A DNA stretch of 64,000 nt, taken from positions 51,105,885 through 51,169,884 of the forward strand of contig CAIIXF020000001.1 in NCBI GenBank assembly GCA_903813345.2, written 5' to 3'. This DNA is from Owenia fusiformis. Its lineage: Eukaryota > Annelida > Polychaeta > Sabellida > Oweniidae. Positions 3,703-64,000 of the stretch are shown in pieces (position 1 is the first letter of the stretch; every line of letters starts with the position of its first letter). The notes under the pieces are model-generated. The model made no database searches. It was not told the DNA's origin and was given only the letters and a program-made list of their open reading frames with translations. The translations under genes and the position numbers were made by a program.

Positions 3703-5349
3703 ATGGTGACCTGCTGCAAACTTAAGTGGTATCTAATGGCGATTGCAGTAATCGGAAGAGGAATATGCACATTTGCAACTGAAGGACAAGCAAATTATAC
3801 AGAGACTTCAACAATTTATGTGAATACAACTGAATACATTGACAGTACAATGTCAACAAACAATACAGAGACAACTACAAGTTTTGTTAATACAGCACAA
3901 TACAAAGACAAAACAATCTCAGTGAACAATACAGAGGCGACCACAAGTAAAGTCAATACAACGCAATTTATTGATGATACAACATTGGCAAGTGACAGTA
4001 GTGACACGAACCATACAACATTGGAGCCAAGAGGAACAATGGGTAAATCTCGGACTGCCATGTTAATACCATTAGAACGATCTCGGTATGATATCATGAC
4101 TTACAGAGCAAAATGTGAGAACAGCCCCGTGGTACCAATATTTATCAATGAGACAAGGGTTGTATTAACCAGCGATCACTTCAGATGGCTCATCCTATGT
4201 GTAAACTCAGTCAATGCAAATAAGGTATGTGCTCCACCATTTAATCGTATCAGTAGAAAGTATGAAGACTACACCATAATGGGTATCGTAATTGACATCT
4301 ATATTTGTATCCCCTTATGTGTGCTTGGAATCATTGGCAACATTCTCTCATTCGTCACCCTTTCTCGTGAAAAGCCAAACACAAGTATAATTATTTTAAA
4401 ATCACTCGCTGTCATTGACAGCATATATCTATTGCTTGTGGTCGTGTTTAAACCCTACCACATTGCATACCACGACACTGAGTGGCTGAATAAATCATCA
4501 CATGACGAATTCTCTCATCAGTTTGAAATAGCCTCAAGTCATGCAGCTCCTGTCATTAATATGGCCCAGATGTGTAGCTCTTGGCTTGTGGTCCTTCTCA
4601 CCATTGATCGCTTTATTGCTATCTGCCATCCATTTAAGGCACTCACCTATTGCACTATAAAACGTGTGAGGGTTGGGATTTTAAGCATCATCGTGATCTC
4701 TATTGTGTATAACATCCCTGAATTTTGGGGGATCAGCTACAAGTGGATCTACCACGAATGCCTGAAGTTATGGATGGTGGCAACTGGAACGATCCGAGGC
4801 TCAATTGGTCAGCATATCCTCTACAGAACCATCTACGGTTTCGCAGGGAATCTCTTATTCAGGAATCTTCTCCCAGTTGTATTAGTTGTTTCACTCAATG
4901 GTCGTCTTGTTCATTCCTTGAGGGTCTCTCTTCAAAACCGAGACAAAATAATGGCAAACACAGAACACAACAACGAGCACCGAGATAAAAATATCACGGT
5001 CACCCTTTTAACCATCTCTTTTGTCTATCTAATTTGCATCCTACCGATGCTGGCTTTGAGTGTCCTTGACATTTATTTCTCATCTGTGCTTACAAATAAA
5101 CACAGTGATACGCTTATCTATTATACATCAGATAATGCATCATTTCAGATCTACATGAAGTTTGCACTGGTTGTTCAATTGTTAGTTAGGCTCAACTCTG
5201 CTATTAACTTTCTTGTGTATTGTTTTGTAAGAAAAGGATTCAGAGGGAAATTATGTAGCGCTTTCAAAATGGTGGTTCAAAGAGAAGGATCGCGTCAGAC
5301 CGTATCCAGTAGATATAAAACCTCTGATAAGTCAAAACAAAGTTATTAA
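3703..5349 (+). CDS. Rhodopsin-family (class A) GPCR, neuropeptide-receptor-like, single exon
   Basis: Predicted plasma-membrane receptor of 548 aa, uninterrupted. The ATG sits in a good context (CACCATGG) and opens a signal-peptide-like segment. Residues about 27-110 are a Thr/Asn/Ser-rich extracellular stalk made of about three degenerate 25-residue repeats with many N-x-T/S sites. Seven hydrophobic segments follow from about residue 194. TM1 has GNILSF. TM2 has LAVIDS, the usual Leu and Asp. TM3 ends in IDRFIAICHP near residue 300, so DRF replaces the classical DRY. TM6 has the ILPML proline. TM7 reads NSAINFLVYCF near residue 497, replacing NPxxY. A basic cytoplasmic tail closes it. This pattern fits the FMRFamide/peptide receptor-like group expanded in invertebrates. 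The family assignment is firm; the ligand is unknown. It lies 3' to 3' with the F-box gene on the other strand. Confidence 0.9.
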   Translation: MVTCCKLKWYLMAIAVIGRGICTFATEGQANYTETSTIYVNTTEYIDSTMSTNNTETTTSFVNTAQYKDKTISVNNTEATTSKVNTTQFIDDTTLASDSSDTNHTTLEPRGTMGKSRTAMLIPLERSRYDIMTYRAKCENSPVVPIFINETRVVLTSDHFRWLILCVNSVNANKVCAPPFNRISRKYEDYTIMGIVIDIYICIPLCVLGIIGNILSFVTLSREKPNTSIIILKSLAVIDSIYLLLVVVFKPYHIAYHDTEWLNKSSHDEFSHQFEIASSHAAPVINMAQMCSSWLVVLLTIDRFIAICHPFKALTYCTIKRVRVGILSIIVISIVYNIPEFWGISYKWIYHECLKLWMVATGTIRGSIGQHILYRTIYGFAGNLLFRNLLPVVLVVSLNGRLVHSLRVSLQNRDKIMANTEHNNEHRDKNITVTLLTISFVYLICILPMLALSVLDIYFSSVLTNKHSDTLIYYTSDNASFQIYMKFALVVQLLVRLNSAINFLVYCFVRKGFRGKLCSAFKMVVQREGSRQTVSSRYKTSDKSKQSY

Positions 5350-5654: not shown

Positions 5655-6140
5655 CCCTAACTCCATTATTGGCTGATTATGTACCTTGTGTATATTATCT
5701 GTATATATTGACTGATTATGTGCCTAATTCTAGAGTAGATTTGTATATATTGACTGATTATGTGCCTATTCTAGAGTATCTTATCAGTATATATTGCCTG
5801 ATTATGTGCCTAATTCTAGAGTAGATTTGTATATATTGACTGATTATGTGCCTTGAATTCTAGAGTAGATTTATATATCGACTGATTATGTACCTTGAGT
5901 TCTAGAGTATATAATCTGTATATATTGCCTGATTATGTGCCTATTTCTAGAGTAGATTTGTATATATTGACTGATTATGTACCTTGAGTTCTAGTGTATA
6001 TTATCTGTTTATATTGCCTGATTATGTACCTTGAGTTCTAGAGTATATTATCTGTATATATTGCCTGATTATGTGCCTAATTCTAGAGTAGATTTGTATA
6101 TATTGACTGATTATGTGCCTATTCTAGAGTATCTTATCAG
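5655..6140. repeat. Minisatellite, about 42-50 bp units, first block
   Basis: Tandem array of 'TGACTGATTATGTGCCT...TCTAGAGTAGATTTGTATATAT' with two alternating variants (GTGCCTAATTCTAGAGTAGA and GTACCTTGAGTTCTAGAGTA). The same array resumes at 6465-6775, after the hairpin element at 6141-6465. The second block encodes the C-terminus of the F-box gene on the minus strand. Confidence 0.85.
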
Positions 6141-6465
6141 TATGTATTACATACCCAGCGAAGCATTTGTATTGAAGTCAATGGAGCTGAAGGTCGGCTA
6201 TATATTCCTGTATAGCCGCCAAACCTTTTACCATGACAATCTTATGACGTCATTTTGACGTCATGTTTCATTTCTTCCTAATTTCACTCGCACACAGACA
6301 CGTGGCGTCATTGATATAACGTAGCCATGATATAAAAGTATGTAGTACAACAGTTATGTCCGTATCATTGAATATATGCCTTCGGTCTGTCGTAATATAA
6401 CCCTCGCAAGCTCGGGCTATATTGGTGACAGACCTCAGGCATATATTCAATGATAGGGACATAAC
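6141..6465. mobile_element. Insertion with a hairpin half, inside the minisatellite
   Basis: Non-repeat sequence that splits the minisatellite. Bases about 6350-6467 form a long imperfect hairpin: CAGTTATGTCC...CATTGAATATATGCC pairs with GGCATATATTCAATG...GGACATAACTG. Further left there is a perfect ATGACGTCA-type pair around 6245-6263 and CGGCTATA...TATAGCCG at 6194-6217. The interpretation as a MITE-like insertion is inference; no target duplication was fixed. Confidence 0.5.
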
Positions 6466-6775
6466 TGCTAAATATTGCCTGATTATGTGCCTAGTTCTAG
6501 AGTAGATTTGTATATATTGACTGATTATGTGTCTTGAATTCTAGAGTAGATTTATATATCGACTGATTATGTACCTTGAGTTCTAGAGTATATAATCTGT
6601 ATATATTGCCTGATTATGTGCCTAATTCTAGAGTATATTTGTATACTAGTATATTGACTGATTATGTGCCTTGAATTCTAGAGTAGATTTATATATTAAC
6701 TGATTATGTGCCTTGAATTCTAGAGTAGATTTATATATTGACTGATTATGTACCTTGAGTTCTAGAGTATGTATT
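6465..6775. repeat. Minisatellite, second block, overlapping a coding exon
   Basis: This continues the unit family of 5655-6140. On the minus strand three units translate as HNQSIYKSTLEFKA-type repeats and end at a stop at 6646-6648, within the last exon of the F-box/LRR gene. Confidence 0.8.
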
Positions 6776-9700
6776 GTTTTCCCTGTGGCCACAACAGTTT
6801 GCAACTTGCTACAACTATTCACTGTCACTTGTTGTAAATTGAGCCATGTAGATAGGTCCAATCTGGAAAATATAATGAAAATATAAATATATACAATACA
6901 AATTTCATGGGAAATATTGTCTTAAAAAGAGTGTGTTCTTCTCATTATTTTCAGACTTAAATCCAATTGCATTAATCTTGAATTTGAAAAAATGATTTCG
7001 AGGAACTATCTTAGACAGGTTCAATAAGTTAATGACGAGTACGGACATTCAAGTTGCACCACAATAAAAACCCTTTGTAGAAAAAACACATGTACACTTT
7101 CATTATGTTTTATGATTTGCAATCATTTAATTTTGTGTGTTCTTGAGTATAAAACAGAGACACTGTTCTAGATAAGAACAGTATTTGAACAAGTTCTATT
7201 TCATCGATATAAAGATTCAAATTACCAATGTTAAATATATTTGATTTATCATTTATTTGTTGACCATATAAATATCTAGTGGAAGTATTCCTTTGTGTAC
7301 TTCTGAAAGTATAATGAGGGGCACTCAACCAAATCATATCTAAACAACTGACTGACAGTTTACTCAGTTAGGCCTGTCAGTGTAGGATTTGAGTATAGAA
7401 TAATGTGTTTATTGTAGGCTCGGGGAACAAAGAAAGCAGATGGTCTCATTATATTATTGAAAACATTGACCCTCTTGTATAGTAGACAGTGTACGAGGGT
7501 TGTCCCAGAAGTAATGCACTATATGGTCTAACTTTATCAATAATTGATATGTTTCCATGAAATTTTCAGTAAATGTTCCTTAAAGACATTTTGATTATTC
7601 TACAAATTTTCATGTTGACTGATAAAACTATATTGATGTTATAATAAAATCAAGTTGGTGTGTTCGGGTAGGATGGGGCAGGTTATACAGTCAAGTCAAA
7701 TGGAATAAAAAATTGAAAATATGAAATAATTAATCAACAAATACCATTTTGTGTAGCTATATGAAGTTGTCTCAAAAATAAATTATAAGATACTAAATTA
7801 CTATGAGCACATCTTAGATTTAATTGATGTTTATTGCACAGTGTCCCATTACACATTTTCTCAAAATATTGCCCTTTGCATGTTATGTACTTTTGATGCC
7901 TGCCAGGTCAAACACTCTTGGCAATTTCTTCCACTGTGGCTTGTGGAGTTTTTGCCTCCCATGTTTGGAGTTGCCATCCAGAGTCCAATCATCTCTCTTA
8001 AATCTCTTCTGCCACCTCATGATTGTAGTTCTATCTGGTATATACTCCTTATATAATTTTTTCATGGTAGCATAAGTTTTGCGTGGCTTTGAGTCCAAAT
8101 GAAGTATGAAATTAGGCCACCAAACGCAAAGCCTTCTGTTATCAGGTGAGAATTGCAGCCATTTTTGCAATTTGTTGACCGTGACTGTATTTGAATTTGT
8201 GACCATTGAACTGTGGGATTATGACATCACAGTGCTAAATGTCATTATTTGTACTTGGGTAACATCATGCTGAATAAATTTAACAATTTCCCAAACATTT
8301 TGATCATTTAAAAGAAAGAAATATTAATAAAATAACACTTTGGATCTTTTCATAATTAGAAAAATTGGTACCTGCCCCGCCCACCCCTACCCCTATGTTG
8401 CTATAGCAACCATATTAAGACTTAATATTAATGTTTGATGCTGAAACTTCAGGATATAATAGAAAAAACTTCAATGCTATATACACAAAATTTCAGCTGA
8501 ATTGAAGTATATCCAAGAAAGTTAGAGCATATAGTGCATTACTTCTGGGACAACCCTCGTATATATGCATCTAGTGGGCATTTCCCATAAATGTATTGTA
8601 AAGCCAATATACAAACTAATAAATATTGAAACATCAACGCTATATTTGTAGACTTACTTTCTTAAAAATGCACATTTGTTGATCTCTAAGTGTGTCAGTT
8701 GGTTGAGCCTGCATGCAGTGCAGGACAGAAGGTTGCCCTGTATGTTTGGCAGCATACTTAGGGAGAGAGACTTCAAGTTCACTGCACCAAACTGTGGGTC
8801 TAGTTCCCCTGAATAGCTATCAGCCTCCTCAGCAGTTACCAGGCCTTGATACCTGGCCACCTGGAAGGGTAAATGGATATGCTTCACATAAATTGTTAGG
8901 TTCTACAGCAAATCTGGGGGCCATTAACAGAAATTTTGTAAAGTTAAGAATTATTAAAGTTCATTGTTCTCTTTAGTATGATGTCATTATATCCATGGTA
9001 ACAATGTTAATGATCTCCAGGTTAAATTATACACTTATCAAGGTAGACAGAAAAAGTTTTCAATGTTGACTGAGATTGAGGTTGACAGTGAAATGGACAT
9101 ATATTATATACCAAATGGCCGTGATTTTGTACGACCTATAATCTGAACTGGATAATTTTCGTCATGGTAATGATGCATTGTAGGATTATTCTTGTAATTT
9201 ATCTGAACATTGGTGAATTCAAACAATTCCCCCAAAATACGAGGATTGTACCAATTCACCAAATATTCATCTGGATCAATAATTCAAGTTTTATTGCCTA
9301 TAATATTTGAAATACAACTTTTTGAAATCTTGACATTTTGAATAATATGTACTGACTAGTAAGTCATAATTATCTCTCCTCCAATAAAGACAATTAACCC
9401 TTTTACCGTATTAATCAAAATGCATCAATTTGCATCATCTTAACACATAACAATCTATATGCTCTCGACTCCTCCTAATAAACACATAGACCTACCTTTC
9501 TCCCTAGTAGTATCCCATCCACCAGTTCATTCTCAGTGATAACTGGACAGTTGTATACAGAGAGGTCTTTCAGCCCAGGCATCCGCAACAATATACCACT
9601 GGCATTTGTAAGATGCTATGAAAATGTGACTGTATATGTGTTAAGTGTATTGAGAAATTTTATAAATTTTTGGTACAAGTATCATTGAACGTTTATTTTG

Positions 9701-12700
9701 TAAAATCAAGGATTTAAAACCTTCATTTTGAAAAGTGGTCTGCGACTTCTTTTTGATTCGAACAGCCACTGAAACATCATTTTTGCCTTAAAATGTACAC
9801 TACGATACCCAAAGCTACCTTCGTGTTGATTTTCTCTGGCGATCAAGCTCAATAAATCACTATGATATACAAGGCATTAACATGTAAAATGTCACCACCT
9901 GCCATTTGTCACAGATGCTGACTGCCGAACACCAAATGTCAAATTCCAACTGCAGAACACAAAAAATGTTGGAGACAACAACAATATCTCCCTTGTGGTG
10001 GTGACATAAAAATGACATGTACTCACACTTAAAGCCAGTGTCTGTAATGTTTTTGACCAAAGCTCAACATAAGTCCAGTCATGGCCACCATGGTGTAATA
10101 CTCGGAGATTTGTCATAGATGGCAGCACTTGCTTACTGATGTCAGTTGGAGGCATACGTTTACATCCTGTGAGGTACAATTTCTCAACCTGATTTAATTG
10201 CTGTATTTGCAGAAGTTGATCTATCTTCAGACTAAAACATAATGCCACCATTATACATATGAACAAGATGCTTCATTTCATGAAATAATGAATAGTTACA
10301 GACATATTTATTTGGTTTGAAAATTATAATTATCATTGCAACTTATGCCTCGGTCACATTTGATCTTCGGCAACTGTACTGTGCCTGTAGGTTCCCAAAA
10401 TCGAGAGAAATATGCAGCACAATCAAAACTGAAGCTTAACTTTGAAAAACTCAATTGAATTTTGTATGTAAACATTGCTACATACAACCTCTGACATCAT
10501 GTACCTGGCTAATATATATTCTGGCATCTCTTGCGCAGCAAAAGGTGAATGGGTTTATTGAAAAGACCTATTCATACACTTACCTAGGACTATAAGAGAG
10601 ATTGACATCAGAAAGTGACAGACAGTGTATAGTGCACTTACCTAGGACTATAAGAGAGATTGACATCAGAAAGTGACGGACAGTGTATAGTGCACTTACC
10701 TAGGACTATGAGAGAGATTAACATCAGTAAGTGACGGACAGTGTATAGTGCACTTACCTAGGACTATGAGAGAGATTGACATCAGTAAGTGATTGACAGT
10801 GTATAGTGCACTTACCTAGGACTATGGGAGAGAGTGACATCAGTATGACGTACAGTGTATAGTGCACTTACCTAGGACTATGAGAGAGATTGACATCAGT
10901 AAGTGACGGACAGTGTATAGTGCACTTACCTAGGACTATGAGAGAGATTGACACCAGTAAGTGACGGACAGTGTATAGTGCACTTACCTAGGACTATGAG
11001 AGAGATTGACATCAGAAAGTGACGGACAGTGTATAGTGCACTTACCTAGGACTATGAGAGAGATTGACATCAGTAAGTGACGGACAGTGTATAGTGCACT
11101 TACCTAGGACTATGAGAGAGATTGACATCAGTAAGTGACGGACAGCAGTGGGGTAGGAACAATGTACGCCAAAACGCCAGTGCGTAGTGTTGAAAAGTGA
11201 GAATAAAAATTTTCCTATGTTCTTTAGTCATATTTTCTCATTGTTCATAAATTGTAAAAGTAATCTCGAGCACACTAGCCTAAAGAAATGTTTTGTGGAT
11301 ACCATATCATTATTGGTCTGTCTGGCAAATATCATTTAACAGATTGAATTCCCTTACCAACATGTTTTATTTCATGAAAATCGAGACTATCTTGAATTTT
11401 AAAAGTAAAATCGCGTTCTCTTCACGAATTTGAGAGAAAAACTGTTTTTTCATTTTTTCTGCATGTTCCGTAATGCTTATGCAAACTATGGTATCGTATG
11501 ATATGATTATAATGATGAACCTCTTTAAAAGATGTATATTTTTTTATTCTCCCCTACCCCGATTTTTCAATTTCACTACATCGATTTATATTCCGTTGCT
11601 ATGCAAAATCATAGACAGAAATTATAGTTAAGTCAGCAATTATCTATTTTCTTACTAAATCACCAATTGTTATTGGTAGTACTTCTTGAAATATGAATGT
11701 TAAAGACAAAAACAACTTGAAAATGCTGATTATTCAATAACACGTTTCATTGATTTCAGTTCTAGAAAAGCGATTACCTAGTTTTTTTTCATTTGAAAAA
11801 TAATAGATTCTTGTTTTATAACATTTTGGGCACCCCCTAAGTCACGTTGACCTCGATTTGACCTTTGTTGTGGGGGTGTTTTTTGTTTCATTGATCACGA
11901 ATGCGTTTCTTCATATCAATTGATCAAACTAGTTTCTTTAATCTGTACGTATTGTATTGCACAGTACACGATGGAATCAGACAATACTATATATCTAAAT
12001 TCAATTATTCGAAAATTATTAAAAAATCTCTTATTGTTTTGGAAATTGGTCGTCTCAATCGTTCAAGACATTAGCAAAGTGAGAATGATTTGTGTCGAGA
12101 TTTAAAAGATAGGCTTTCCAAGGTGATTTTAAATGATGAAAATCATTCGAACATTTTAAAGCACATTAAAAAGGTATCAGGGATTTAAAGCTTGCATATA
12201 AAATCGAAACGCCAACCTATACGTATGACCAATCGCCCATACAAATGCATCGCTTTAGTATTTCCGTTCACATTTAGGTTGTGAAAAACATTGCAAGCTT
12301 AAAATCTCTGTTTTCATAAAATGACATTTTACGAGCATAAAATAGGCGTTTTGATATAGAATATTGACACAATTGTTTCATATTTTTGGCGGGATTTTTG
12401 GCGTAGTGTTGAATTTACACCTTCCTACGCCCCTGGACAGTGTATAGTGCACTTACCTAGGACTATGAGAGAGATTGACATCAGTAAGTGACGGACAGTG
12501 TATAGTGCACTTACCTAGGACTATGAGAGAGATTGACATCAGTAAGTGACGGACAGTGTATAGAGATCACAGAAAGGGAATCAAGCCTACTAAGGTTCAA
12601 CTGGGTCATGTTGGAGGAGAGAATGGACACCTCTGCTAAATGTTCACATCCATCTGTTTTTAACTCAGATACTGGAAAAAGAAACATTGGGAAATGTAGG

Positions 12701-15700
12701 AAAATTCTTTTAAGTATATGGGGATAGGTGGTCAAATTAACATGTCAAACATTTGTTCAAGAAAACACAGAAATTCAATCTTAGTACAACAATTGAAGAA
12801 CAGACACAAGACCTGTTTTTTTTAGGTTTACTTAATATCATTTTGGGGATGGATTGACTATCATACTATTTTATGCAACACTTTCATTAGCAGCAGGTTA
12901 GCAACAAGTGATTTTCTCATGTTGCTTTTACAAAAATCACCTGTTTTTTGAGGAATTTTGCGAATGTTAACATGTTAAAATTATAACTTTGAATGATTTT
13001 GCCTGTTGTTTCCATTTGCTTTGCCTGTTGTCAAATATACATGCTCTAATGAAACCCTTGTATATGTCAAATAAATTGTTTTAGAACTAACAGTTCATAT
13101 TTACCTTAATGAGGGTTGCAAATAAGAGTTACATGGACATAGCGAGACTTCTCAACATTTTTATTATTTAATGCTTCATATATAAATCCACTTACATGAT
13201 TCACAGTTGAGGTGAATATGTCTAATGTTCTTACAATACGAGACATCAACACATTGTAGCTCAGCAGCACCACTAGACAAGTGGAGCATTTCAAAACCTA
13301 TAACAATTAAATAATAATAATACATGTATATCAAAATGGAAACACAAAGAGTAACATTAGAAACCAAGAATACTTCAGAGCTGACAGTATGTTGGTCCAT
13401 CAGTGTAATTAAGCCAATTGCATCTGAGGAAAAAATTATTTGAAAAGTAATTGAAACTGAAAACAAAACAAAAACACCTCTTGGCTGTGAGGAATATTAT
13501 TTGTGAAAGATGCACTCAATAGAATGGAATATTTGTTTTATATTCCAGATACATTTTTGAGATCAATTATCCAGACTGCCTGGTCTTACACAAGGATTTA
13601 TATTTATAAAAACAAATGTGAGATTGTGCAATTGTCAATTACCTGTACAGTTGTTGAGAATGAGTGTTTTTAAACAGGAGATCTCCAACTGTTGCTGAAA
13701 ACAGAGCAGAACAGGTTTGTATTAACATTTTGTGATATATGCATAACATGTAAAGTGGTTAATGATACAATATATAATAGGAATGAGCATATGGATACAT
13801 TTGAGTCATAGAGAAGTGCTTCCATAAAATAATTTATATGTATTATCACGACTTTCAAGAAATTTATTGGAAGTCAAAAACTATAGTCATTGACATTGTA
13901 ACAGTTACTCCACTAGGACTCTCTAGGGCATAATTTAACCTACCAGATCTGTGGAGATACCCCTCAGGCGCTTCGAACCTGATAAATCAAGGTGTTCCAG
14001 ACAAGGGCAGTTCTTACACATCACCTCTATGTTAGGGCCCTCCAGATATAAACCATGTAACCTACAATATAACTCAGGCCTTTATAATGTTGCTTTCTAA
14101 TGAACCTTCTCAAAACATCCCCTCTTCTATCGGAAACTTTCTAAAGACTAAGTATTTGTAGACCATTATACCAAGAAACATCCCTGAAAGTTTCAGATTG
14201 ATCCGTGAAAAAGAAAAGAAAGTATTTTGCATTTTTAGACATTTTTTGAACAAAGATAACAGAATTCTGGTTTGACCTCCAGTCAATTTAACTATTTCCA
14301 CATATCATTTACATGACCAGGATCACAATGTGCATGGTCAGAATGACCCTAAACATGATGAAATAACCTTTTTAGCCCTTTGAAAGTGTGACTGAAAAAA
14401 AGCTAAAAGTTAATTAACCTTTTCTAACCTTGAAAGGGTCATTGAAGGTCAAACCATACATGTAAAGTCAGATTTGAACTTCTGAAAACTTGTATATGAT
14501 TTGGAAAAAAATTGAAGTCAGTCTAAACAATATTTGTTAAGTTATTGGAATTTTTAAGAATTTGTTACAGACCCCAACCACCACCCGCCGATCACCAACC
14601 ACCAACCGCCAACCACCAACCGCTGACACTTTGTGGATATGGGGTGATTTCGTGAAAGATAATGTATTGAGAGCTCTTAAAGCGTAACTTATATATAGGC
14701 TTCATAGATGCCAATAATTTCTAAAATTATGTAAACCAAACACATTCTTCAACCCCTTGAATATTCTCTTTGAGGAATTTCTCTTAAAAATCCAATGATA
14801 TAGTTTCAAGCAGATTTTTAAATAACAGGAAAGTAAATATTGAATTCACACCTTATTGGATTGTGATATAAACGAACAAAAATAAAAGTGAGTTACGCTT
14901 TCAGAGCTCTAAATACATGATCTTTCACTATATTACCCCATATCCACAAAGTGCCGAGTGGACACTATGATAGAATTCTAAGTGTTTTGAATATAAGTAC
15001 ATAGGCACTTTACATAGTTCTCATTTTAGATTTTTCCACACTTTGGACCTCTTCAAATTCTCATAAATCAAAATCAGTATTGCTTATCAATACTGTACTT
15101 TAATCTGCACACATTCTTTATATCACGATGATCAAAACTAAAGAATACATTTTGCACACATTCCCACCATAGTATATTGATTAAATCAAGAATGCAGACA
15201 TAACCAGCAATAGTTAAATACCACCACAGTTTCCAATATGTCCACTCAGCCTAAACGAGCCAGGATTCAAGATGAATTTAGTGAGCAAGATGAAACTGCT
15301 GAGAAAAAAGAGAAAGATGGAGTATCATCACTGATGGAAGACTTTAATATACAGGATGATGAAAAACAAAGAACAGGACAGCCAGATGATTCAGGTTGGT
15401 GTAGGTTGTTTTATTCATCAAATCATTGATATGTATCCCCCAGTGCTAAATGGAAAGGACCAAAAATTATTACAGAACCCAGCAAGAAAAAGAAAATATC
15501 TAAGTGTACATCAGTTTAAGAAAACAAACCCCAACCATCCAAATCAGAATCCAACGTGAAAAGAAACAATGTCTAAAACCCCCTCCCACCATTCAAGTTC
15601 CATTATCACAATCCAAGAGCACAACACCAAGGGACATCAAGGTGGAGTCACTGGTATTGGGATTTATGAATTTTCTGTGGGAGACTTTCAGATGAAAAAA

Positions 15701-18700
15701 TAAAAGATTTTACAGACAGTTAATGAATGTTTATGCATACATTAAAACACTCATGGTTTTAAGGGATTTCTTCCCTGACGTTTTCCAATTTAATACCTGT
15801 AGACCTTTCAAATACTAGATTATAGTAAATCCTGAGCCTTTTTGGTGAACCATTGAAATTGGGAAAAGATCTTACTTTGCTGGGGAAATCTTTTTAGACA
15901 AATGTAAGACATTTTTGAGAATAAGTAAATCTCTACCTTGAAACTGTAAAAGTTTCAAACTGTGAACACTGGTTATGTGGGCCATTACTTTCTCAGATTC
16001 GAGATGTTTTTAATGTTTAAAGTCAAATATCAGGCCTCTTAAACTTCCACAAACTCGATCATCAGTTCCAACCTCGTTAACAACATTCTTCCACCTGAAC
16101 TACAGTTCGCACAATGCGAACATCTATTCTTTAGTCGCGAACCATCAATTCCTCTCTCCCAAACACATTTCTCAATTCCCGCACAGCATCCAGGTGGTTG
16201 GGATTCCAAATCATATCCCAATATGTCAGATGATATCACCGAACGGAGTGAAAAACATGGTTGTGCGCAGGATCACAAAGTTGACCCAATATTTTGTGTT
16301 TCTTAGAGCTTGAAAATGCTTTTATTAGACTCCAGATTGAAAATTTTTATTAAGGTCAAACGTCAAAATCTAGGTCAAATTTTCAAGTTTCCCAAATTTT
16401 CAATTTTCTTTCTAAACTTTTAGAACATATTCCTTGGAATCATTTTCTACATTTATCTAAGTATTTCAAACAATCCCCCTTCTATTTTTTGATGAAATTT
16501 TACAAATTAATCTTAATTAATTAATTAAGGGTTTTTCAGAATTCCAAATCTGGTTGACCCTCTATGACCTTTTAAAATAAAAAAGTCAAAATTTTTAAAT
16601 CTTTATTTTGAATTTTAAATTCATTAAATCATTATAAAAAGATCTTACCTCCAAAGGTCAGGAAACTCAAACTTTTGAGTGTCAAAGGTCAAGATTAAAA
16701 TCTAGGTCAAATTTCCAAGTGTCAATGGCCAAGATCTGAAACTCTGGGCTCGAATGGAGATAGGAACTGGTGATTTGCGACTAAAGAATCAATGTTTGTG
16801 TCGTCGGAACTGATGATCAGGTTATTGGGAGGCCTGAATTTGTACATGTATAGTAAAACCTTTTTTGCACTGCATAAGATTCTTCTTTTCCACTACGATA
16901 GTAGGTGTTCACTGTAATAGTGAGATTTTGTTCCATCTATCTTTAGTTCATTCTCAAATGTCCACTTCAAGGGGAAGGGGGGTGTTAGACATTATTTCTT
17001 TTCGCGTTAGATCATGGTTTTGGTGTATATAGGGTCTATTTTTTGCATGACAGGTTTAGAATTAGAATTTTCTTTTCTTTCAAAGTATCTTTACAGTTTT
17101 TAGTCCTCTCCATTTTGCACTTGTGCTTAGATATTCAGATGCTGAAGGATGTAAGAATTGTTTAAGAAACCGGCACTGAAATCACAATTTTTTCATAGGG
17201 ATCGAAACCAGCATAGTTTTCTCTTTATGACCATTGTGTTTGTGTTTTACGGAATATGAAGATGGCTTTGCGAATGGATGTTAACCCTTTAAAATGCCTA
17301 TGGACTTTGAGACTGGATTTTGTCTATCCCATATCATTTTCGACTGAAAGGGGACATTGTTTCTTTTCGTGTTAGATCGTGGTTTTGGGATACATGGGGT
17401 TTGTTTTTCTCATGACCAGTATACACTTAGAGTTTGATTTTTCTTGAAAGGTTACTGTAACAGTTTCTAGGTTCTATCAAGATTTGTCTTAATAATGACT
17501 GGTATGCACTTAGAGTTTTTCTTGCAAGGTTCCATTACAACTTTTGGTCCTTTCTTTTTGGCACTAGTGCTTAGATATATTATGATATGGCTGGATTATG
17601 ATCTAGTTACTGTTTAAGAAAGTATCAAATGAAATTTGTGAGAATTGAAGCTTACATGTCTGCTTTACTAATGTTGATATATATATGTTGATCTCTGGTG
17701 TGTTAATCAATATGATACCTTGTTTCACATTAAGATAAAGAAAGGTGTAAGGAATACGCTTTCATCAATTAAAACATAACAACAATGTGTCATATTCAAA
17801 AACTAACTGGTGAGAATTTGCGCGAACGAAGGTGGTAAGAAGAGACGTAATTATATAACTTTTGGCCCTGAGGTTTTCCCTCCTCTTAACCTCAACTAAT
17901 AATCTAGGCATGCACTATTTGTGCAAGACTAAAAATTGTAGACAATGTATGGTATGAATTAATATGTACCCAAGGAGGATTGGCTCCCAGGGTCTCAACT
18001 CGATATTCGACCTTGATCTTGATCGATGACAACATTGAAAATGTTGTTATTTTTTATATCATAACAACTGACAATTAATTCATAATCCGCAGTCCAAAAG
18101 ATTTGAACTTATACTGATCATTTCTTGTTTGTTTTGATTTTTATGTTTAGAAATAAGACCAAAACTTGCAATTCCAATTTTGCAGTGAAAAAATGGGGGA
18201 CATTTGAATTTTGTAATCATGACATGACAACGTGATAATAGGTCAAGGTCATAATACCATATATGACAATAATATCAATGTTGCATTCTGGAAGCCAATC
18301 CTCCTTGTATGTACCTGAATATATCATGGCACTCCCAAACTTTCTTAACATATGGAACTACCTTAATAAGTAGGTCAATCTTTAAAAATATTTTTGATGA
18401 CCAAATCTAGTAACAGAAATAGGAGGTGCTTACAGACAGAAGTTTCACTGTACAAGTATTATGCTCTGAAATAAAATTTCAAGATATTACTACTTGAACA
18501 TTATGGCAAAACATTGAAACATTCTTTTAAATAGCCCCCCTTGATGCAGCAAAGGGTAAAGAACGATTTCTACAAAGATCTCAATCACGTAAAGAAGCGA
18601 AAGAAAAGACAAAATTGACCCTCAATGACACTGGAGGTGAGACCAGCCAAAGTGATAAATAATGTCAAAAACAGTAATGAAGGACAGTTAAGTACTTTAT

Positions 18701-21700
18701 ACACACATACTACTAGGGGTCCCACGATACACGATACATATTTTGAATAGCGATACAAGCAACAACATTTACCTCACGATACAATACAAATGATATGAGC
18801 AAATAAAATATGGTAAATAAAGTTTGTGAAAATTTTCACAAGAAAATCAAAACCATTCAATCTTCCAGTTCTTATTTGATTTTAACATTATTTAATAACT
18901 GCTAGAATCTAGTTTTGCTTTATTTCAAGTCCCATTGTTGAATATTGAATGATGTTACCATGATATTTGTTCTCTCATGTCTTGACCATCAGCCATTTTT
19001 GTTGTTGTTTATCAATACGTATTCTAATTAAGGGAAATATATATGGTCACAATTTTCTTCAGCAAAGCTTGTGTCATAAACTTATAAATGAACGTTTTTT
19101 GTTTTGTCTTATATGTAGTTTTTGAAACAAATTGTAATCACGTTTTCGTAAACCAATACAGAAGCTGTATTTTAAAATAACGAATTGCCCATGTAATTTT
19201 AAAGCTAATGAGAGAATCAGCCCATTCTGATGATGCTTTCAACATTATTATTTCCTAATACTTAGAATGAAAGAGATTCCCCCGTTTAATCGCCCAATAG
19301 TTTTGACAGAAAAGGATGAAACAGGCATGGTTTCAACAGTTTTACGGTATGCTAAGTGGCTAATCAGGTTGAATATTGGTATCCTCGTATCGTAATCAAT
19401 TGTTTCGCGGGACCCCTAATACTGACCAACAAAGTACAAGAATTCATAACTTCAATAGACAGTTTCTAATGTACTATGTTTATTTTTTATTATTGAAGTA
19501 TTATTTAATGATCAGGATGTTTCAACAACCTAGTAATTGGGTAAAATGGTTCAAATAACAGGGCTTCATTTTTTTCTCTCTTGTCATTATGCTGATTCAT
19601 TTCAGAAACATCTAACTACATGTACAAACTAGGCCAAAAGATTGCTAAATTTGGCAAAGAGAAGAACAGCAAACAGATTAAACAACAGGCCAAAGACATG
19701 TGTGCACTGGCTGAAGAATACCTCAAGCTCACCGAGACATCAGCAGAAGGCTGGTACTTTGTAAAAGCATGTTGTCTCTTTAATGCTGCACTGAGGAGAT
19801 ACCAAAAGATTCAATGGGACATCAAGGATCAGGAAAACACTACAGGTAGTCAAGAAACTTATATCAAAAAAAGACTCCAGGTTATAGAGACAGAATTTTT
19901 AAAAAAAGTACCAAGCAACCCAAAGGTTAGCAATATGTCGACCTCAGAAAGTGCAATTAAATTTAGGTCATTGATAAATGAGGTGCGTGAATATGAGACA
20001 AACACTATCAACCATATTCATGAGAATGTAATGAAAATAGATTTGTCTGGCACGGCAGATATGAGTGAAGATGCCGAGATTCAAACAATTGAAGAAAGCA
20101 ATATATTTTACAATACAGTAACTGACAAGATAAAGGGTTTTCACAACTCAGTTATTGAGGATTGTATGAAGGTTTTAGGTGTCCCTCAATGTCGATATGC
20201 CATCTTAGGTCATGGCTCGTTGGCTCGTAAAGAGGCAACAGCCTGGTCAGATTTAGAGTTTTCTGTACTTTATGATCCAACAGAGAAATCCCCAGAACAT
20301 GTTGAGGATATCAAAGCATATTTTAGAGTACTTGCCCACTACATTCATATCAAAATCCTCAATCTAGCTGAAACACTTCCTTACTGTCTTAGCATCCCAG
20401 TTCTCAATGATCACAATAAGCTTCTTGGGGGAGTAAAAGATAATAACTTTTATGATGACATTACACCACAGGGTATCTCATTTGATGGTGCCTCTCCCTG
20501 GGCAAGCAAGACTCCACTGGGCCGCAAAGCGACTGCAAACAGACCTGAACCTATTGAACTCATTATGACCCTAACAGAGATGGCTGAATGCCAACAGGAG
20601 GAGAAGTCAGAGAAGGAGGGCTATCATCTAAGTGATGTCCTCCAGTCAAAGACTCTCTTACATGGGGATGGAGAGTTAGTTAATGAGTACACATCAATGA
20701 TTAATAAAATCCTTGCCTCTCCATCAAAGGGTACCCAGAAGTCAATAGCTTATGAACGAGGTATGGAGACCATGAAAGAAGATCTCGAGAACTTCTCTAA
20801 ACATCCTTTTACTCCAGAATCCCTCTCATCCCAAATACACACTAAGAAAGATATCTATAGGTTTGCAACAATATCTATCAATACATTAAAATTAAAGTAT
20901 GAATGCAAGTTTGATGCCCCCCTTGATATCCTAAGTGAACTCGAAAAGAAAGGTATAATTGAATCAAAGGCTTGCAGAGACCTAAAACTCATGGTATGCA
21001 TTGCTATTAACCTCCGTCACTTGGTATACAGCAGGTATAACAGACAACATGATGATATCTGCTTCACCCGATCACGAGATGAAAATGATCCATCAAAGTC
21101 AATGTCAGTTCGTGATTATAGTGCAATATTTCGGTTTTATTACACCTTTAAGCCTTGGCTAAATTTCCTTCAAGTCGAATGTAAAACCAGCCACCAAAAA
21201 GACTCTGACAATTGGAACTGGAAAAAAAGGTACTTTGAAAATTCCAACAATGTTAAAGGGGAAATTTTCCAAAATATGAATAATTTTGACAGTGCAATCG
21301 AGGCTTTTGAAAAAGAACATAATTCATTACAAGTTAAGGGCACTTTAAAACAAAGGAGTGACATAAAACATACATTGGGAATTTTGTATAAGAGCATAGG
21401 CAAGCATGATATTTCTTTAACTTATTCTGAAGAAAGTTTTCAAATTATAAAACAAGTTCATGGTGATGCTCCACACTCAGATGTATCCATCTCTTTACAC
21501 ACACTAGGTATAGTCAACCAGGCTAAAGGTGATTACATAAAAGCTCTGAAGTACTTCACTGACAGCCTAGAGATAGATAGGCAGATACATGGTGATGCTC
21601 CACATCCAGATGTAGCTATCTCTTTAAGCCAGCTAGGTACAGCCTACCTGGCTAAAGGTGATAATATTAGAGCTCTAGAGTGCTGCATTGACAGCCTTGA

Positions 21701-24700
21701 TATGAACAGACAGATACATGGTGATGCCCCAGACCCAGATGTAGCTGGCTCTTTACACCAGCTAAGTACAGTCTACCTGGCTAAAGGTGATAATATTAGA
21801 GCTCTAGAGTGCTGCATTGACAGCCTTGATATGAACAGACAGATACATGGTGATGCCCCAGACCCAGATGTAGCTGGCTCTTTACACCAGCTAAGTACAG
21901 TCTACCTGGCTAAAGGTGATAATATTAGAGCTCTAGAGTGCTGCATTGACAGCCTTGATATGAACAGACAGATACATGGTGATGCCCCAGACCCAGATGT
22001 AGCTGGCTCTTTACACCAGCTAAGTACAGTCTACCTGGCTAAAGGTGATAATATTAGAGCTCTAGAGTGCTGCATTGACAGCCTTGATATGAACAGACAG
22101 ATACATGGTGATGCCCCACACCCAGATGTAGCTGACTCTTTACACCAGTTAGGTACAGTCTACCAGAATAAAGGTGATTACATTAGAGCTCTAAAACACT
22201 TCACAGACAGCCTTGAGATGAAGAAGCAGGTCCATGGTGATGCTCCACACCCAGATGTAGCTGCCTCTTTCGCCCAGATTGGTGTAGTCTACCAGGCTAC
22301 AGGTGATAACACCAAAGCACTGGAGTACTTCACTGCTGGCCTGAAATTGAACAGACAGATACATAGTGATGCTCCACACCCAGATGTAGCTGCCTCTTTT
22401 GACCAGCTAGGTACAGTCTACCTGGCTAAAGGTGATAATATTAGAGCTTTACAATACTTCACTGATAGCCTAGAGATGTACAGACAGGTTCACGGTGATG
22501 CTCCACATACATCTGTAGCTGTCTCCTTAGACCGGCTAGGTACAGTCTACCAGGCTAAAGGTGATAACACCAAAGCACTGGAGTACTTCACTGCTGGCCT
22601 GAAATTGAATAGACAGATACATAGTGATGCTCCACACCCAGATGTAGCTGCCTCTTTTAACCAGCTAGGTACAGTCTACCAGGCTAAAGGTGATAATATT
22701 AGAGCTTTACAATACTTCACTGATAGCCTAGAGATGTACAGACAGGTTCACGGTGATGCTCCACATCCATCTGTAGCTGTCTCCTTAGACGGGCTAGGTA
22801 CAGTCTACCAGGCTAATGGTGATAACATTAGAGCTTTACAATACTTCACTGATAGCCTAGAGATGTACAGACAGGTTCATGGTGATGCTCCACACCCATC
22901 TGTAGCCGCTTCTTTAGACCGGCTAGGTACAGTCTACCAGGCTAATGGTGATAACATTAGAGCTTTACAATACTTCACTGATTGCCTAGAGATGTACAGA
23001 CAGGTTCATGGTGATGCTCCACACCCATCTGTAGCTGTCTCTTTAGACCGGCTAGGTACAGTCTACCAGGCTAATGGTGATAACATTAGAGCTTTACAAT
23101 ACTTCACTGATAGCCTTGAGATGGATAGACAGGTTCATGGTGAGGCTCCACACCAATCTGTAGCTGTCTCTTTACACCAACTAGGTACAGTCTACCAAGC
23201 GAAAGGTGATTACAATAGAGCTCTAGAGTACTTCATTGATAGCCTAGAGGTATACAGACGGGTTCACGGTGATGTTCCACACCCGTCTGTAGCTATCTCT
23301 TTACACCAACTAGGTACAGTCTACCAAGCGAAAGGTGATTACAATAGAGCTCTAGAGTACTTCATTGATAGCCTAGAGGTATACAGACAGGTTCATGGTG
23401 AGGCTCCACACCAATCTGTAGCTGTCTCTTTACACCAAATAGGTACAGCCTACCAAGCGAAAGGTGATTACAATAAAGCTCTAGAGTACTTCACTGATAG
23501 CCTAGAGATGGATAGACAGGTTCACGGTGATGCTCCACACACAGATGTAGCTGCCTCTTTAGTCTACATTGGAACAGTCTACTATTATAGAAATGATTAC
23601 AGAACATCATTAGACTATTTGAATAAATCATATGAGATGTATATGACTGTATTCAATGATGAAACCCATCCTGACATTGTTAACACTGCAAAGTGGATTC
23701 AGCTCTGCAAACAGCAATTAACTTAATCAATTAAGCATATCTGATATATCTAAATGAAGTGAATGAAAAAGCATAGTATTAAAGTGATAATAGAGGAAAT
23801 TATAGTTAAAGCAACACGGCATTAATGTGACAAAATGTCACCACCTGCAAATTGTTACAGAAGTGAAACAATTGTCACAGTTGAAGGTCAAACATAGGTC
23901 AAATCTGAATTTAAATCAAATTTAAACTACAAGGACTTTTAATTAGAAAGACCATTTTGACCTTTTTCTACCTTGAGATGGTGATCAAAGGTCAAATATC
24001 AAATCTAAAGGTAGGTACAAAATATTTCAAAGCAAATGCAAGACATATACGGAATTCGTGTGAAAAGTCTGAACGGAATGCGTTCGCTATTTTTCGACGT
24101 TTGTTTTTTTACCATATCGGCATTTTATAAAAGCAACCTTTTTAGATATCAACATGATGCCATGTTTAACAGACACATTCATCAGGTAATCGATCATCCC
24201 TAGCCCTTTTATCACATTACCAACTTTAAATCTGACCATACTGACCTATTATTATTAGAAAATGTTGTTATATTAGGGTCACAATTTGTAGATTTTACTT
24301 GAGTATACCAGAGTGCATTTACTACTGTTCTTATACTGCATATGCAAAGTAATGTAATGTATAGTCTAAACTAAATCCGGTTGACAAGAAATTGATGCAG
24401 GCCCTTTATCAAGAAGTATAACCTACCATGCTATCTGACCCGAATTAGCCACCTGGTGATGAAACTGATAACTACATACTACCACCTGGGTTAATAATAA
24501 ATTAGGACAACAACTTTGCATAATTATGAATTGTAACATTTGTTTTTTAAAAATATATAGCATCTAGAACTCACTGAACATGAGATAGTGAAAGGGTTAA
24601 GATTTGATAGAGCCAAGTAGGCAACATAGCGTTCCTAGTGTTTATATTTTTTACTTTAGCCACTTACCTCTCTCTTACCCCTTTTATAATAGATTAGCAT

Positions 24701-27700
24701 AACATGAAAAAAATCTGCCACAGATAGGTTGAAGTGAAATCAGTGAAGTTATTGTGATGAAGAAACTCATGCTTTCTGTTATATATAAATGACCTTCATG
24801 AAGTCATAAATCATAGTCAACTTTACCTTTATGCAGATGATAGTTCAATCTTTATGCCATTTAATAGGAAAGCTAATATCATTGAACAAAACCAGCATTT
24901 ACAAGCTGACTTAGTTAATTTATGGGAATGGTCCCAGAAATGGAAGCTTAAATTTAAACCTTCTAAAAGTCAAGATATGATTTTTAAAGGCTCAAGGAGA
25001 TGCAATCTCTTATATCCTCCTCTCTACCTAGGAAATGAGGTAATAAATAGAACCAGAACCCATAAACACTTAGGAGTCATTCTAGATGAGCATTTGAATT
25101 TTGAAGCCCATTTACAGGATATCATAAAAGCATGTAATATAATGTTAAATCCATTGAAACTTCTCAAGAACAAGATTCGAGCTAAACACTTAGAGAGGAT
25201 GTATCTATCATTTATTCTCCCAAACTTAGAGTATGGAAGTATATTATTTGAAAAATCCACTAAGTATAATATTATGAAACTAGACCAAGTTCACTATAGA
25301 GCAGCATTATAAGTAAGTGACTGCATTCATGGAACATCCACTGTTAAGGTTTCGAAATGTCTAAATTGGAATACCCTGTCTGAGCGGAGAAAGGAGAAAC
25401 GCTTACGTTTAATGTATGATGTATAATGTATGACAGAAATTGGTTCCACCTTATGTCCAAAAATTTTTTGATAGTTATCAAAATAAGCAACATAATATTA
25501 ATCTAAGAAAGTTAAGAGAATACACTATTCCAAAGTTAACTACACGTTCACAAAAGTCACCAATAATAAATGCCATAAGTGAATGGGAAGCCATTCCAAA
25601 TTATCTAATAAGTTCACCATCAAGAGTTACTTTCAAAACCAATTTACGTAAATTTTCAGGGAAAACGAAGCAATTAACAACCACAAACCTGGATCTTACA
25701 AGAAAAGAAGAAATTTTATTGAATAGAACAAGATGTGATTTCATTTTTACTGGTCATCTTTTCCAACATAATTTTCAAGGTATTGACAGTCCCAAATGCA
25801 TCTGTGGTTTTGAACAACAAACCACAAAGCATCTAATCTTCAAATGCCCTCTGTTGAATGTTATAAGAGAGAAACTTTGGGGGGAACCATGGGCTTTCAA
25901 CTAGAGTTGAAAGCCCATGGGGGAACTCAGGAACATGCCAGAAATGAACATTTTCTTTACAGGATGCTCTATAGAGCAAAAGCAGAATATCTTAATGTAT
26001 GGCAGAGATGGAGTTAGCATAACATGCAATTCTTCAATATTGAAGCATTTTACATCCTTTTTGTGTGAATGCATTGATATAATTATATAGTTTTAACACA
26101 TTCCTGCCATGCATACATACATGTTGGTAGTCATTTTTGTTGCTATTTTGTAAATTTGAATAAACTTTGTACTAACAGGGCCAATAATGCTGAATTTCAG
26201 CCTCGGCCCTGTCATTTGTAAATCATATTGTAAAGTAAAATAAAGAAACCATAAAAACTAAGAAACTCATGTATTTTTGGCATATATTTAATACTTGTGC
26301 TGGACAAATATAAAGCTGTGTGTAAATGCTAAATGGTGCATCTTATTGTTTCAAATATCTATGATAGGGATGTAAGTGTCATCTCCTCGAGCTGACATAA
26401 TCAAGCTAGGTACAAAGTTTAATCTCTTAGATAGAATGAAGACCTATATCTCCACAAAAAATGATCGTTCATACAGGTATGTTCTCCACTTTTGATGAAC
26501 AGATACAAACCAAGGGTAAAACCATGTCCCTCTCGGCTCATTTTTGTCAAAACTTTCAGTTTCGCTGTTTGGGAAAACGTCATAAAATGGACTGTATTCT
26601 CATTAACTTTTAATTTCGCAGGTAATTGCGTCATTTAAAAAGCTGCTTCTCTATTGGTTATATGTAAATCGTAAGTGAACTTCACATTCATAAATTAATT
26701 GTAGCATGTGTAGTGGACTTTCCGCGAAGAATCTTATTACCATACGAGGGGTGATCCAAAAGTCTTGGATGCCCTGCTCTAATTTTGTTGGTTTTTGATA
26801 GAATAGCTTTAAACTTTCAATAATAAAGACCAATAACCGAACTACTTTGTGCATTATTTTATGGAGAAACGATATATTTTATGAAGTTTTCTAGATAGTT
26901 TTTGATATAGGGACCCTGCCACCCTGAACAGTATTCGCACATGGCATCTTTCAGTCTTAAATGTTGCCGCCATTTGACTTGTTTCGGCGCGCAAGTCTTG
27001 ACCACTATCCTTCTTTGAATTTCGAATGTTAAACCATGTTAGTTTACTTCCTTTGTTACTTGGCAACCAATTAATTGTGCTTTAATTATAATGTCCCATA
27101 TGACAATGGCCGTATATGTCAAATTCTAAGAAAATGAAATCAGACAAGCAACCCTCATTCTGGTATCATATTTTGCTCCAAGATGGCTGTTGAAATGCAG
27201 ATTATGAAAGAAATCAAAGTGGAACAAAGAATACTATAAGATATTCTCACTATTATTGACCTTTAGCAGCTACCATATTCACGATACAGTCTAGATATGG
27301 CTCCGTGTGATTTTCTTCCTTTTCTCCAAGTTGAAAAAAGGGTTGAATGAAAATGTCTTTTACTCATTCGATCAGGTTTAGAGTGGCACTCCAGCAGCAT
27401 TTGTAGATACATAAGCAATGGCGGTTTCATAAATGTCTTTCATTCATTGGTAAAGCGATATAAAAATGTGTTCAAATTCATGGAAAATATGTTGAAAAGT
27501 AGGTCTTAATATGTGAAGATGATGATGGCAGATGACACTCAGATTGAAAATTGGAAATTCTCTCATATCATATCAACCCTCGTATATGGTGTCTCTAATT
27601 AAAACATTGACATAAACAAAGTATTGCACTGTATCCCTCAACATTCACGAGCATCAGTCTACTAACAAGGAAATCTGATGTTTAAAAATAGATTTCAAAT

Positions 27701-46520: not shown

Positions 46521-47552
46521 ATGCGTTTACACATGAACCGAATTATAATTTTAATTGCAATTATAATTGGAGCATTGGTAATTTTATCAAACTATAGCAG
46601 GCTTAAAACATGGGATTTGTACCGGAGAAATGATCCAAGAGAGTTAAAAATGTTATCTAAGAGATACTCAATCAATGGATATTTCCACACTGAACGCTCA
46701 CGCATCACCAAGGTGATTATATTAACATACTACAGAAGTGGCTCCAGTTTCTTTGGAGAAATTTTCAAGAATAACAAGGAAATATTGTACATGTATGAAC
46801 CACTCAAGTTTTTGGAGGTTAAATACGGCAATTTAAATCTACAAATTGTTGGCCAACCTTTCCTTAGAGAAATCCTCAATTGTAACTTTGAGAGTAGCAC
46901 CTTCCTGGACATATGTAAGGAAAGTTATAAAATGGCATGGAAGAATATCTTCAAGGCTAACAACATATCTGACATATTTGACAGATGCAAAAACCGGAGT
47001 CTCAAAGTGGCTAAGATCATCCGACTGAATGATCTAGAACTTTTGGCATCCTATTTTGGCAGTGACACTGCGATTATACATTTAATGCGGGACCCTAGAG
47101 GTGTATTCAATTCTCGGAAATCACTCAGTGTAAAACATGCACCAAATCAGACTCCTCATCAGTTCAGAATAGCCGATATTACAAACACATGTAAGAGCAT
47201 TGTTATGAATATGAAATTCATCGCAACCTTAAGGGATTCAGTATACAAGCATCCAATTGATGGACCTATTGTTAAACAATACAAGTACAACGAATATGCA
47301 TATGATCCACTTAACACAGCAAAAGGTGTTTATGAAACTCTGAATATGTCTCTCCCAACAGCTGTTGAGAAATGGATTGATGACCACACCAAAATTACTA
47401 CAGATCATGATGCAAGTTCCACAAAACGTAACTCAAGTAGTGTCCCTACTAGGTGGATGCATGAACTTAATAAAAATATTATTCATGAGATCCAAAATAT
47501 AAGTTACTGTGCAGAGGCAATAAAAATGATGGGGTTTGAAATAATGAATTGA
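46521..47552 (+). CDS. Carbohydrate sulfotransferase (GlcNAc/Gal 6-O type, CHST-like), Golgi type II membrane protein
   Basis: Transfers sulfate from PAPS to a sugar hydroxyl, probably in the Golgi lumen. Single ORF of 343 aa. A short cytoplasmic N-terminus is followed by one signal-anchor helix (residues about 7-24, IIILIAIIIGALVILSNYS). The 5'-phosphosulfate-binding loop reads TYYRSGSSFFGEIF (residues about 69-82). The 3'-phosphate-binding segment reads IIHLMRDPRGVFNSR (about 184-198). These are the hallmark motifs of the GlcNAc/Gal/GalNAc 6-O-sulfotransferase group. The length fits a compact member of the family. An in-frame ATG at 46533 is an alternative start. AATAAA lies about 630 bp downstream. 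The sugar acceptor cannot be told from sequence. Confidence 0.9.
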   Translation: MRLHMNRIIILIAIIIGALVILSNYSRLKTWDLYRRNDPRELKMLSKRYSINGYFHTERSRITKVIILTYYRSGSSFFGEIFKNNKEILYMYEPLKFLEVKYGNLNLQIVGQPFLREILNCNFESSTFLDICKESYKMAWKNIFKANNISDIFDRCKNRSLKVAKIIRLNDLELLASYFGSDTAIIHLMRDPRGVFNSRKSLSVKHAPNQTPHQFRIADITNTCKSIVMNMKFIATLRDSVYKHPIDGPIVKQYKYNEYAYDPLNTAKGVYETLNMSLPTAVEKWIDDHTKITTDHDASSTKRNSSSVPTRWMHELNKNIIHEIQNISYCAEAIKMMGFEIMN

Positions 47553-52261: not shown

Positions 52262-62898
<10,637 letters not shown>

Positions 62899-63061: not shown

Positions 63062-64000
63062 TTAGGGTTGGGTGGCTCCTGGTATGGGCCCAGCCCACAC
63101 AGGCCAGGTAGAGTGGCTTCAGGCCACACAGGCCAGGTAGAGTGGCTTCAGGCCACACAGGCCAGGTAGAGTGGGTTCAGCCCACACAGGCCAGGTAGAG
63201 TGGCCACACAGGCCAGGTAGAGTGGCTTCAGGCCACACAGGCCAGGTAGAGTGGCTTCAGGCCACACAGGCCAGGTAGAGTGGCTTCAGGCCACACAGGC
63301 CAGGTAGAGTGGGTTCAGCCCACACAGGCCAGGTAGAGTGGCTTCAGGCCACACAGGCCAGGTAGAGTGGCTTCAGGCCACACAGGCCAGGTAGAGTGGC
63401 TTCAGGCCACACAGGCCAGGTAGAGTGGCTTCAGCCCACACAGGCCAGGTAGAGTAGCTTCAGGCCACACAGTCCAGGTAGAGTGGCTTCAGGCCACACA
63501 GGCCAGGTAGAGTAGCTTCAGGCCACACAGGCCAGGTAGAGTGGCTTCAGGCCACACAGGCCAGGTAGAGTGGCTTCAGGCCACACAGGCCAGGTAGAGT
63601 GGCTTCAGGCCACACAGGCCAGGTAGAGTGGCTTCAGGCCACACAGGCCAGGTAGAGTGGCTTCAGGCCACACAGGCCAGGTAGAGTGGCTTCAGGCCAC
63701 ACAGGCCAGGTAGAGTGGCTTCAGGCCACACAGGCCAGGTAGAGTAGCTTCAGGCCACACAGTCCAGGTAGAGTGGCTTCAGGCCACACAGGCCAGGTAG
63801 AGTAGCTTCAGGCCACACAGGCCAGGTAGAGTGGCTTCAGGCCACACAGGCCAGGTAGAGTGGCTTCAGGCCACACAGGCCAGGTAGAGTGGCTTCAGGC
63901 CACACAGGCCAGGTAGAGTGGCTTCAGGCCACACAGGCCAGGTAGAGTGGCTTCAGGCCACACAGGCTAGGTAGAGTGGCTTCAGGCCACACAGGCCAGG
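63062..64000. repeat. 29-bp minisatellite running off the window end
   Basis: About 32 copies of GGCCACACAGGCCAGGTAGA plus GTGGCTTCA, GC-rich against AT-rich surroundings. Variant units (GTAGCTTC with AGTCCAGG) recur exactly 290 bp apart (63451 and 63741), which shows a ten-unit higher-order duplication. It probably lies in an upstream CDC14 intron. Confidence 0.95.

Follow-up and report, generated by a model that had tools for sequence, protein, structure and literature searches.

NEX2, a protein family of Neochlamydia, comprises 50 proteins with C-terminal tetratricopeptide repeats (TPRs); the majority have an N-terminal F-box, most have a DUF294 domain and ten have an OTU domain (Domman et al. 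2014, PMC4209131). Computation predicted just two NEX2 members as secreted, but a functional type III signal was found in the tested members of NEX1, NEX2, PEX1 and PEX2. Here we analyze a gene from the annelid Owenia fusiformis that joins a nucleotidyltransferase (NTase) to a long TPR array. It lies in a stretch of 64,000 nucleotides (assembly GCA_903813345.2, contig CAIIXF020000001.1, positions 51,105,885 to 51,169,884 of the forward strand), which we call the window. The gene has the NEX2-type layout, i.e. a homologous DUF294-type NTase followed by a C-terminal TPR array. An earlier note, made from the letters of the window alone, had singled out the gene as its best candidate for an undescribed system. 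As stated this is not supported, since the gene does not stand alone: the genome contains about 82 such loci, animal members already carry a database label ('Protein-PII uridylyltransferase N-terminal domain-containing protein') and the NTase-TPR architecture is in print for NEX2 (PMC4209131). No paper on the animal family was found in searches of an open-access library.

The predicted gene model on the plus strand has three exons with GT/AG borders and in-frame joins, which together encode 1459 amino acids and account for the span marked in the earlier note (15238..23726). The NTase and TPR parts share one stop-free exon, exon 3, the product of which (P0001) has 1373 amino acids; residue numbers refer to P0001 unless stated otherwise. 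At its N-terminus the window gene product resembles the annotated paralogue P0003. The latter contains 90 residues ahead of the sequence ETS versus 86 in the window gene, and its KRTKLQEE and RFLQREQAQRQAREK correspond to KRARIQDE and RFLQRSQSRKEAKEK of the window gene, followed in both by GETSxYMYxLG. P0001 begins with four helices (residues 4-14, 22-42, 50-72 and 81-100), which are partly conserved among relatives. A Pfam scan of exon 1 gave no match. No F-box was found in exon 1 or in the TPR-free part of exon 3, the parts scanned for it, and no OTU domain was found in the gene. The best protein matches of the window gene are from Owenia fusiformis.

The DUF294 model (PF03445; curated Pfam cut-off 21 bits) scores 19.6 bits over full-length P0001 and 21 bits in the TPR-free part alone; the relatives P0004, P0013, P0016, P0021, P0164, L001, L002, L003 and L005 pass the cut-off. 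In spite of this borderline score the identity as an NTase is secured by the family alignment and the predicted fold. Structure prediction and comparison yielded the NTase core on which the earlier note had staked its proposal, together with a HEPN-like helical bundle arranged as in the protein adenylyltransferases GlnE and DrrA. In the predicted fold these two are the nearest neighbors; a CD-NTase did appear in the comparison, scoring far below them, and the lower rows contained aminoglycoside transferases and MNT/HEPN pairs. An intact-looking NTase and helical companion domain fused to a kinesin light chain (KLC)-type TPR array, as had been proposed, is supported. The proposed GlnD/DUF294 type is refined to GlnE/DrrA as nearest predicted fold; the match lists contained no solved GlnD NTase and do not decide between kinship with GlnD and with GlnE.

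The catalytic carboxylates look intact across animal and bacterial members. The starting set combined 205 proteins with 80 translated locus frames, and 258 of these 285 records had hits to the hidden Markov model (HMM). Four duplicates and the partial proteins P0021, P0025, P0123 and P0128 were left out of the count and four records gave two rows, so that the alignment has 254 rows, of which proteins supply 205 and loci 49. In the active-site motif G204 is kept in 253 rows, S205 in 251, D216 in 252 and E218 in 253; the exceptions at the two acids are P0089, which has N in place of D216, and P0090, in which both positions are gapped. Similar retention is seen for D294 (253/254), D284 (247/254) and K414, R419 and R471 (252/254 each). 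Loss of the two acidic positions in orthologues, which the earlier note had named as refuting, was not what the alignment showed; their numbering as Asp297 and Glu299 is corrected to residues 302 and 304 of the gene model. The NTase is under purifying selection, with dN/dS values of 0.087-0.151 (dS 0.26-1.30) in the six pairs that can be formed from the window gene and the three paralogues closest to it. For the N-terminal helices of these genes dN/dS is 0.134-0.399.

The array contains 17 units with a spacing of exactly 43 residues, in agreement with the earlier count of about 17. Tandem Repeats Finder (TRF) reports a period of 129 bp with 16.4 copies (score 2548), and Pfam TPR_10 matches 18 stretches (E = 1e-130). 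When units are counted by sequence pattern in one open frame each, the window gene has 17 units with a one-unit period, L037 has 19 with a three-unit period, L038 has 15 with a two-unit period and L039 has 6. Units resemble each other more within a gene (means 0.67-0.85) than between genes (0.59-0.64). By HMM the number of units in 20 annotated Owenia proteins ranges from 0 (P0015, partial) to 15, compared with 17 in the window gene. These results indicate that the repeat arrays turn over between close paralogues, in number and in period; the repeats are indeed fast-changing, as had been suggested. Over 57 units the entropy peaks at positions 2, 5, 9, 12 and 13 (mean 1.79 versus 1.03 bits, permutation p 0.0015), which we take to be the ligand-facing positions of a TPR.

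A search of the worm's own genome (498 Mb; E 0.001 or better) with the NTase region gave 86 matches, distributed over C1-C12 and five small scaffolds. Since four loci are each split into two matches, the number of NTase loci is about 82; 84 of the 86 matches are free of internal stops. The three nearest paralogues are 88, 88 and 79 percent identical to the window gene.

The analysis shows how the gene is built, which fold it is predicted to have, how well it is conserved, how far the family has expanded and is distributed, and that its repeats turn over. From this we infer that the gene probably encodes an intracellular, TPR-guided protein nucleotidyltransferase, most likely one that transfers AMP, with a substrate chosen by the array; we give this reading a probability of about 0.55. 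Its catalysis, nucleotide, substrate and role in conflict would be as follows. The NTase with its HEPN-like domain would transfer AMP, or less likely another nucleotide, from a nucleoside triphosphate to a protein side chain, with the TPR solenoid holding and selecting the substrate protein. The modified protein would be switched off or given different partners. Duplication would yield many enzymes that share an unchanging catalytic module and differ in their arrays, and hence a large worm repertoire for many or changing targets. The likely setting would be interaction with intracellular microbes, because the nearest relatives found among described proteins are of effector type and come from intracellular bacteria; on indirect grounds, an immune role of the family is plausible.

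Several observations weigh against this reading. Chains with a related fold, the aminoglycoside transferases and MNT/HEPN pairs, use other substrates, so that protein AMPylation is not proven. Against the single halves of GlnE, hhalign gives low probabilities of 9.7 and 2.7 percent, and the second acid is strictly E in the family (D-x-E), in contrast to the D-x-D motif of GlnE and DrrA. The 254 rows are not independent, since some annotated proteins and genomic frames represent the same gene. The same holds for the units in the entropy test, which are homogenised by duplication. Finally, dN/dS among repeat units within a gene is 0.42-0.60 and hence not above 1.

Somewhat short of even odds stands the explanation that gene exchange accounts for the family. 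The animal genes would come from, or be the source of, effector-type genes of intracellular bacteria, and the proteins would do similar work in host cells, perhaps on endogenous targets and with no immune role. The named animals are few and scattered, which speaks for this explanation: the search with the window gene gave 89 matches, the named ones being 20 from Owenia and the remainder from amphioxus (9 Branchiostoma), octocorals (2 Dendronephthya, 1 Paramuricea) and tunicates (2 Clavelina, 1 Phallusia). For a chlamydial query, the names among the 120 listed of 251 matches include Parachlamydiaceae, Neochlamydia, Branchiostoma, Paramuricea and Xenia. In both searches a score was computed for the top word-sharing candidates alone, and absence from the results weighs little. 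A scan of genome contigs found six loci, all in metagenome-assembled genomes (MAGs) titled Parachlamydiaceae, Chlamydiae or Rickettsia typhi; in viral contigs no relative was found. Five of these loci, L001-L005, were scanned for TPRs. An NTase followed by clear TPRs, which argues for exchange, is present in the two Parachlamydiaceae loci L001 and L002 and in Neochlamydia P0164 (F-box, DUF294 and TPR by Pfam). The MAG loci titled Rickettsia typhi point the other way, with TPRs that are weak and below the Pfam cut-offs, after the NTase in L003 and on both sides of it in L004; none were found in the L005 frame, which is ended by the stretch's edge. A search with the chlamydial NTase matched 33 of 232 genomes in the phylum of L001's MAG (Chlamydiota), many of them weakly. 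The MAG that carries L004 is G003; of 174 genomes in its order 7 match, six of them with E below 1e-20, and the six include two MAGs already known. When 398 genomes were drawn evenly from the phylum of G003, 25 matched, with E below 1e-6 in G003 alone; a strong match in just one of 398 genomes is again in favor of exchange.

The OTU domain also bears on this explanation. OTU, DUF294 and TPR occur together in the Owenia proteins P0004, P0013 and P0021 (Pfam). The OTU region, which is spread over two exons, has 31 matches in the worm genome, and its second exon is covered by 18 copies. Twelve of these are followed, on the same strand and within 15 kb, by an NTase match; by coordinates the matches correspond to 11 distinct NTase loci, although such nearness need not mean one gene in each case. 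This arrangement recalls NEX2 with its F-box, OTU, DUF294 and TPR domains and its tested representative with a functional type III signal (PMC4209131). However, the OTU-containing region of the worm matched worm proteins only (5 matches including the query). In P0004 we also observed two tandem NTase regions after the OTU domain (residues 459-1017 and 1009-1610), an arrangement that calls to mind GlnE with its two NTase halves.

Phylogenetic trees were constructed from 105 selected rows and from 52 rows, the latter set lacking 38 unnamed or jgi rows, four long-branch rows and eleven more. Both trees group the sequences mainly by lineage, with octocorals in separate places and a backbone without resolution. 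Approximately unbiased (AU) tests rejected neither the tree in which the bacteria were held together (p-AU 0.563) nor that in which Owenia was held together (p-AU 0.332). These results count against exchange as an explanation, and neither the direction nor the number of transfers follows from them.

Three side observations concern the bacterial loci. The chlamydial protein of L001 (3083-7351) weakly matches the PADLOC models PDC-M70A (2.2e-5) and PDC-S09 (0.0015) over its NTase. L001 contains three long frames in tandem (183-10782), two of them with an NTase and the first TPR-like by eye. In L002 there is a weak methyltransferase match ahead of the NTase.

A third explanation, which we consider rather unlikely, is an innate immune receptor-enzyme: the TPRs would sense a microbial or stress ligand and trigger nucleotide transfer or messenger synthesis, in the manner of NLRs or cGAS-like receptors (cGLRs). 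The large expansion with array turnover and the relatives in intracellular bacteria are consistent with such a role, as are the N-termini of paralogues. A hydrophobic N-terminus followed by (G/A)-G-(V/I)-(E/Q/H)-x-NPGP, which resembles a 2A sequence, is present in 11 of 20 Owenia proteins (P0004, P0005, P0006, P0007, P0009, P0010, P0013, P0017, P0018, P0020 and P0021) and in none of the 184 other proteins scanned. A 2A-like sequence also lies within 1500 bases upstream of 9 of 30 own-genome loci (L012, L013, L018, L020, L022, L025, L028, L033 and L034). The window has no match to NPGP codons, and the window gene is without a 2A-like signal. In sea urchin NLRs, N-terminal 2A-like sequences are reported to serve both as signal sequences and in translational recoding (PMC4981915).

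The weakest explanation, a pseudoenzyme scaffold in which the NTase is kept as a fold alone and the protein works through TPR binding like a KLC-type adaptor, could draw on the KLC-type TPRs that fill more than half of exon 3 and on the many TPR proteins that are pure adaptors, but the near-total retention of the catalytic positions over animal and bacterial rows and the low dN/dS of the NTase make it very improbable.

The TPR-guided protein nucleotidyltransferase therefore remains our preferred reading. A broader version of it is more doubtful than either of the first two alternatives. In this version a family of TPR-guided AMPylases would be shared by transfer between intracellular bacteria and marine animals, and several animal lineages would have built large intracellular repertoires that modify microbial or host-hijacked proteins, some of them dually targeted via 2A-like signals; this would amount to an unrecognised enzymatic arm of invertebrate immunity. 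Animal AMPylation is discussed mostly with respect to Fic-type enzymes. If true, a GlnE/DrrA-type domain combined with changing TPR arrays at some 82 loci of a single annelid would bring in a different class of AMPylation enzymes. Through the kinship with NEX2-type proteins, gene transfer between intracellular bacteria and animals becomes open to direct tests.

Table 1. Coordinates of the window gene, its parts and other features of the window.
Feature	Position	Strand	Remarks
Exon 1	15238..15394	+	Charged N-terminal tail, starts MSTQPKRARIQ; GT donor, in-frame join, P0003-like N-terminus
Exon 2	18535..18636	+	34 codons including RFLQRSQSRKEAKEK; AG acceptor, GT donor; resembles P0003 RFLQREQAQRQAREK
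Exon 3	19606..23726	+	Whole NTase and TPR region
N-terminal helical region	19605..19934	+	P0001 residues 1-110; first codon straddles splice junction
Nucleotidyltransferase core	20052..20594	+	P0001 residues ~150-330
Active-site motif G-H-G-S-x10-D-x-E	20208..20258	+	P0001 G202 to E218
D294 of ISFDG, candidate third carboxylate	20484..20486	+	Putative role; alternative candidate D284
HEPN-like helical companion domain	20742..21188	+	P0001 residues ~380-528
17 TPR units of 43 residues	21459..23651	+	Pfam, TRF, spacing pattern; weaker TPR-like residues 548-616 ahead
Rhodopsin-type G-protein-coupled receptor match	3703..5349		Open frame of 548 aa (7tm_1 E 4.1e-14)
Reverse-transcriptase fragment	24761..25309		~1 kb downstream of the gene (RVT_1 E 5.9e-6, below Pfam cut-off)
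Sulfotransferase-like open frame	46521..47552		343 aa (E 2e-8)
DSP-PTPase phosphatase model Tc-R-P match	59235..59546	-	Open frame (6.7e-7)
29 bp tandem repeat	63091..64000		31.6 copies, up to the window's end

Among the known systems, DrrA/SidM has an N-terminal adenylyltransferase domain with 11 percent identity to the window NTase; it carries D-x-D where the window gene has D-x-E and, to our knowledge, lacks a TPR array. The glutamine synthetase adenylyltransferase GlnE is a bacterial enzyme with two NTase halves, and we know of no TPRs in it. The cGAS-like receptors and CD-NTases have a Pol-beta-type NTase core, as does the window gene. Sea urchin NLRs share with several Owenia paralogues the hydrophobic 2A-like N-terminus ending in NPGP; the published motif, D(V/I)ExNPGP, has D before (V/I) where the Owenia paralogues have G (PMC4981915). 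The paralogues carry an NTase and TPRs where the sea urchin proteins have NLR domains. The proteins of NEX2 are bacterial and mostly bear an F-box, whereas the window gene is spliced and belongs to an animal, with no F-box or OTU domain found in the parts searched. Both have a DUF294 NTase and C-terminal TPRs, an OTU domain ahead of DUF294 is common to ten NEX2 members and to Owenia P0004, P0013 and P0021, and NEX2 has undergone a large birth-and-death expansion with variable repeat number, as has the Owenia family (PMC4209131).
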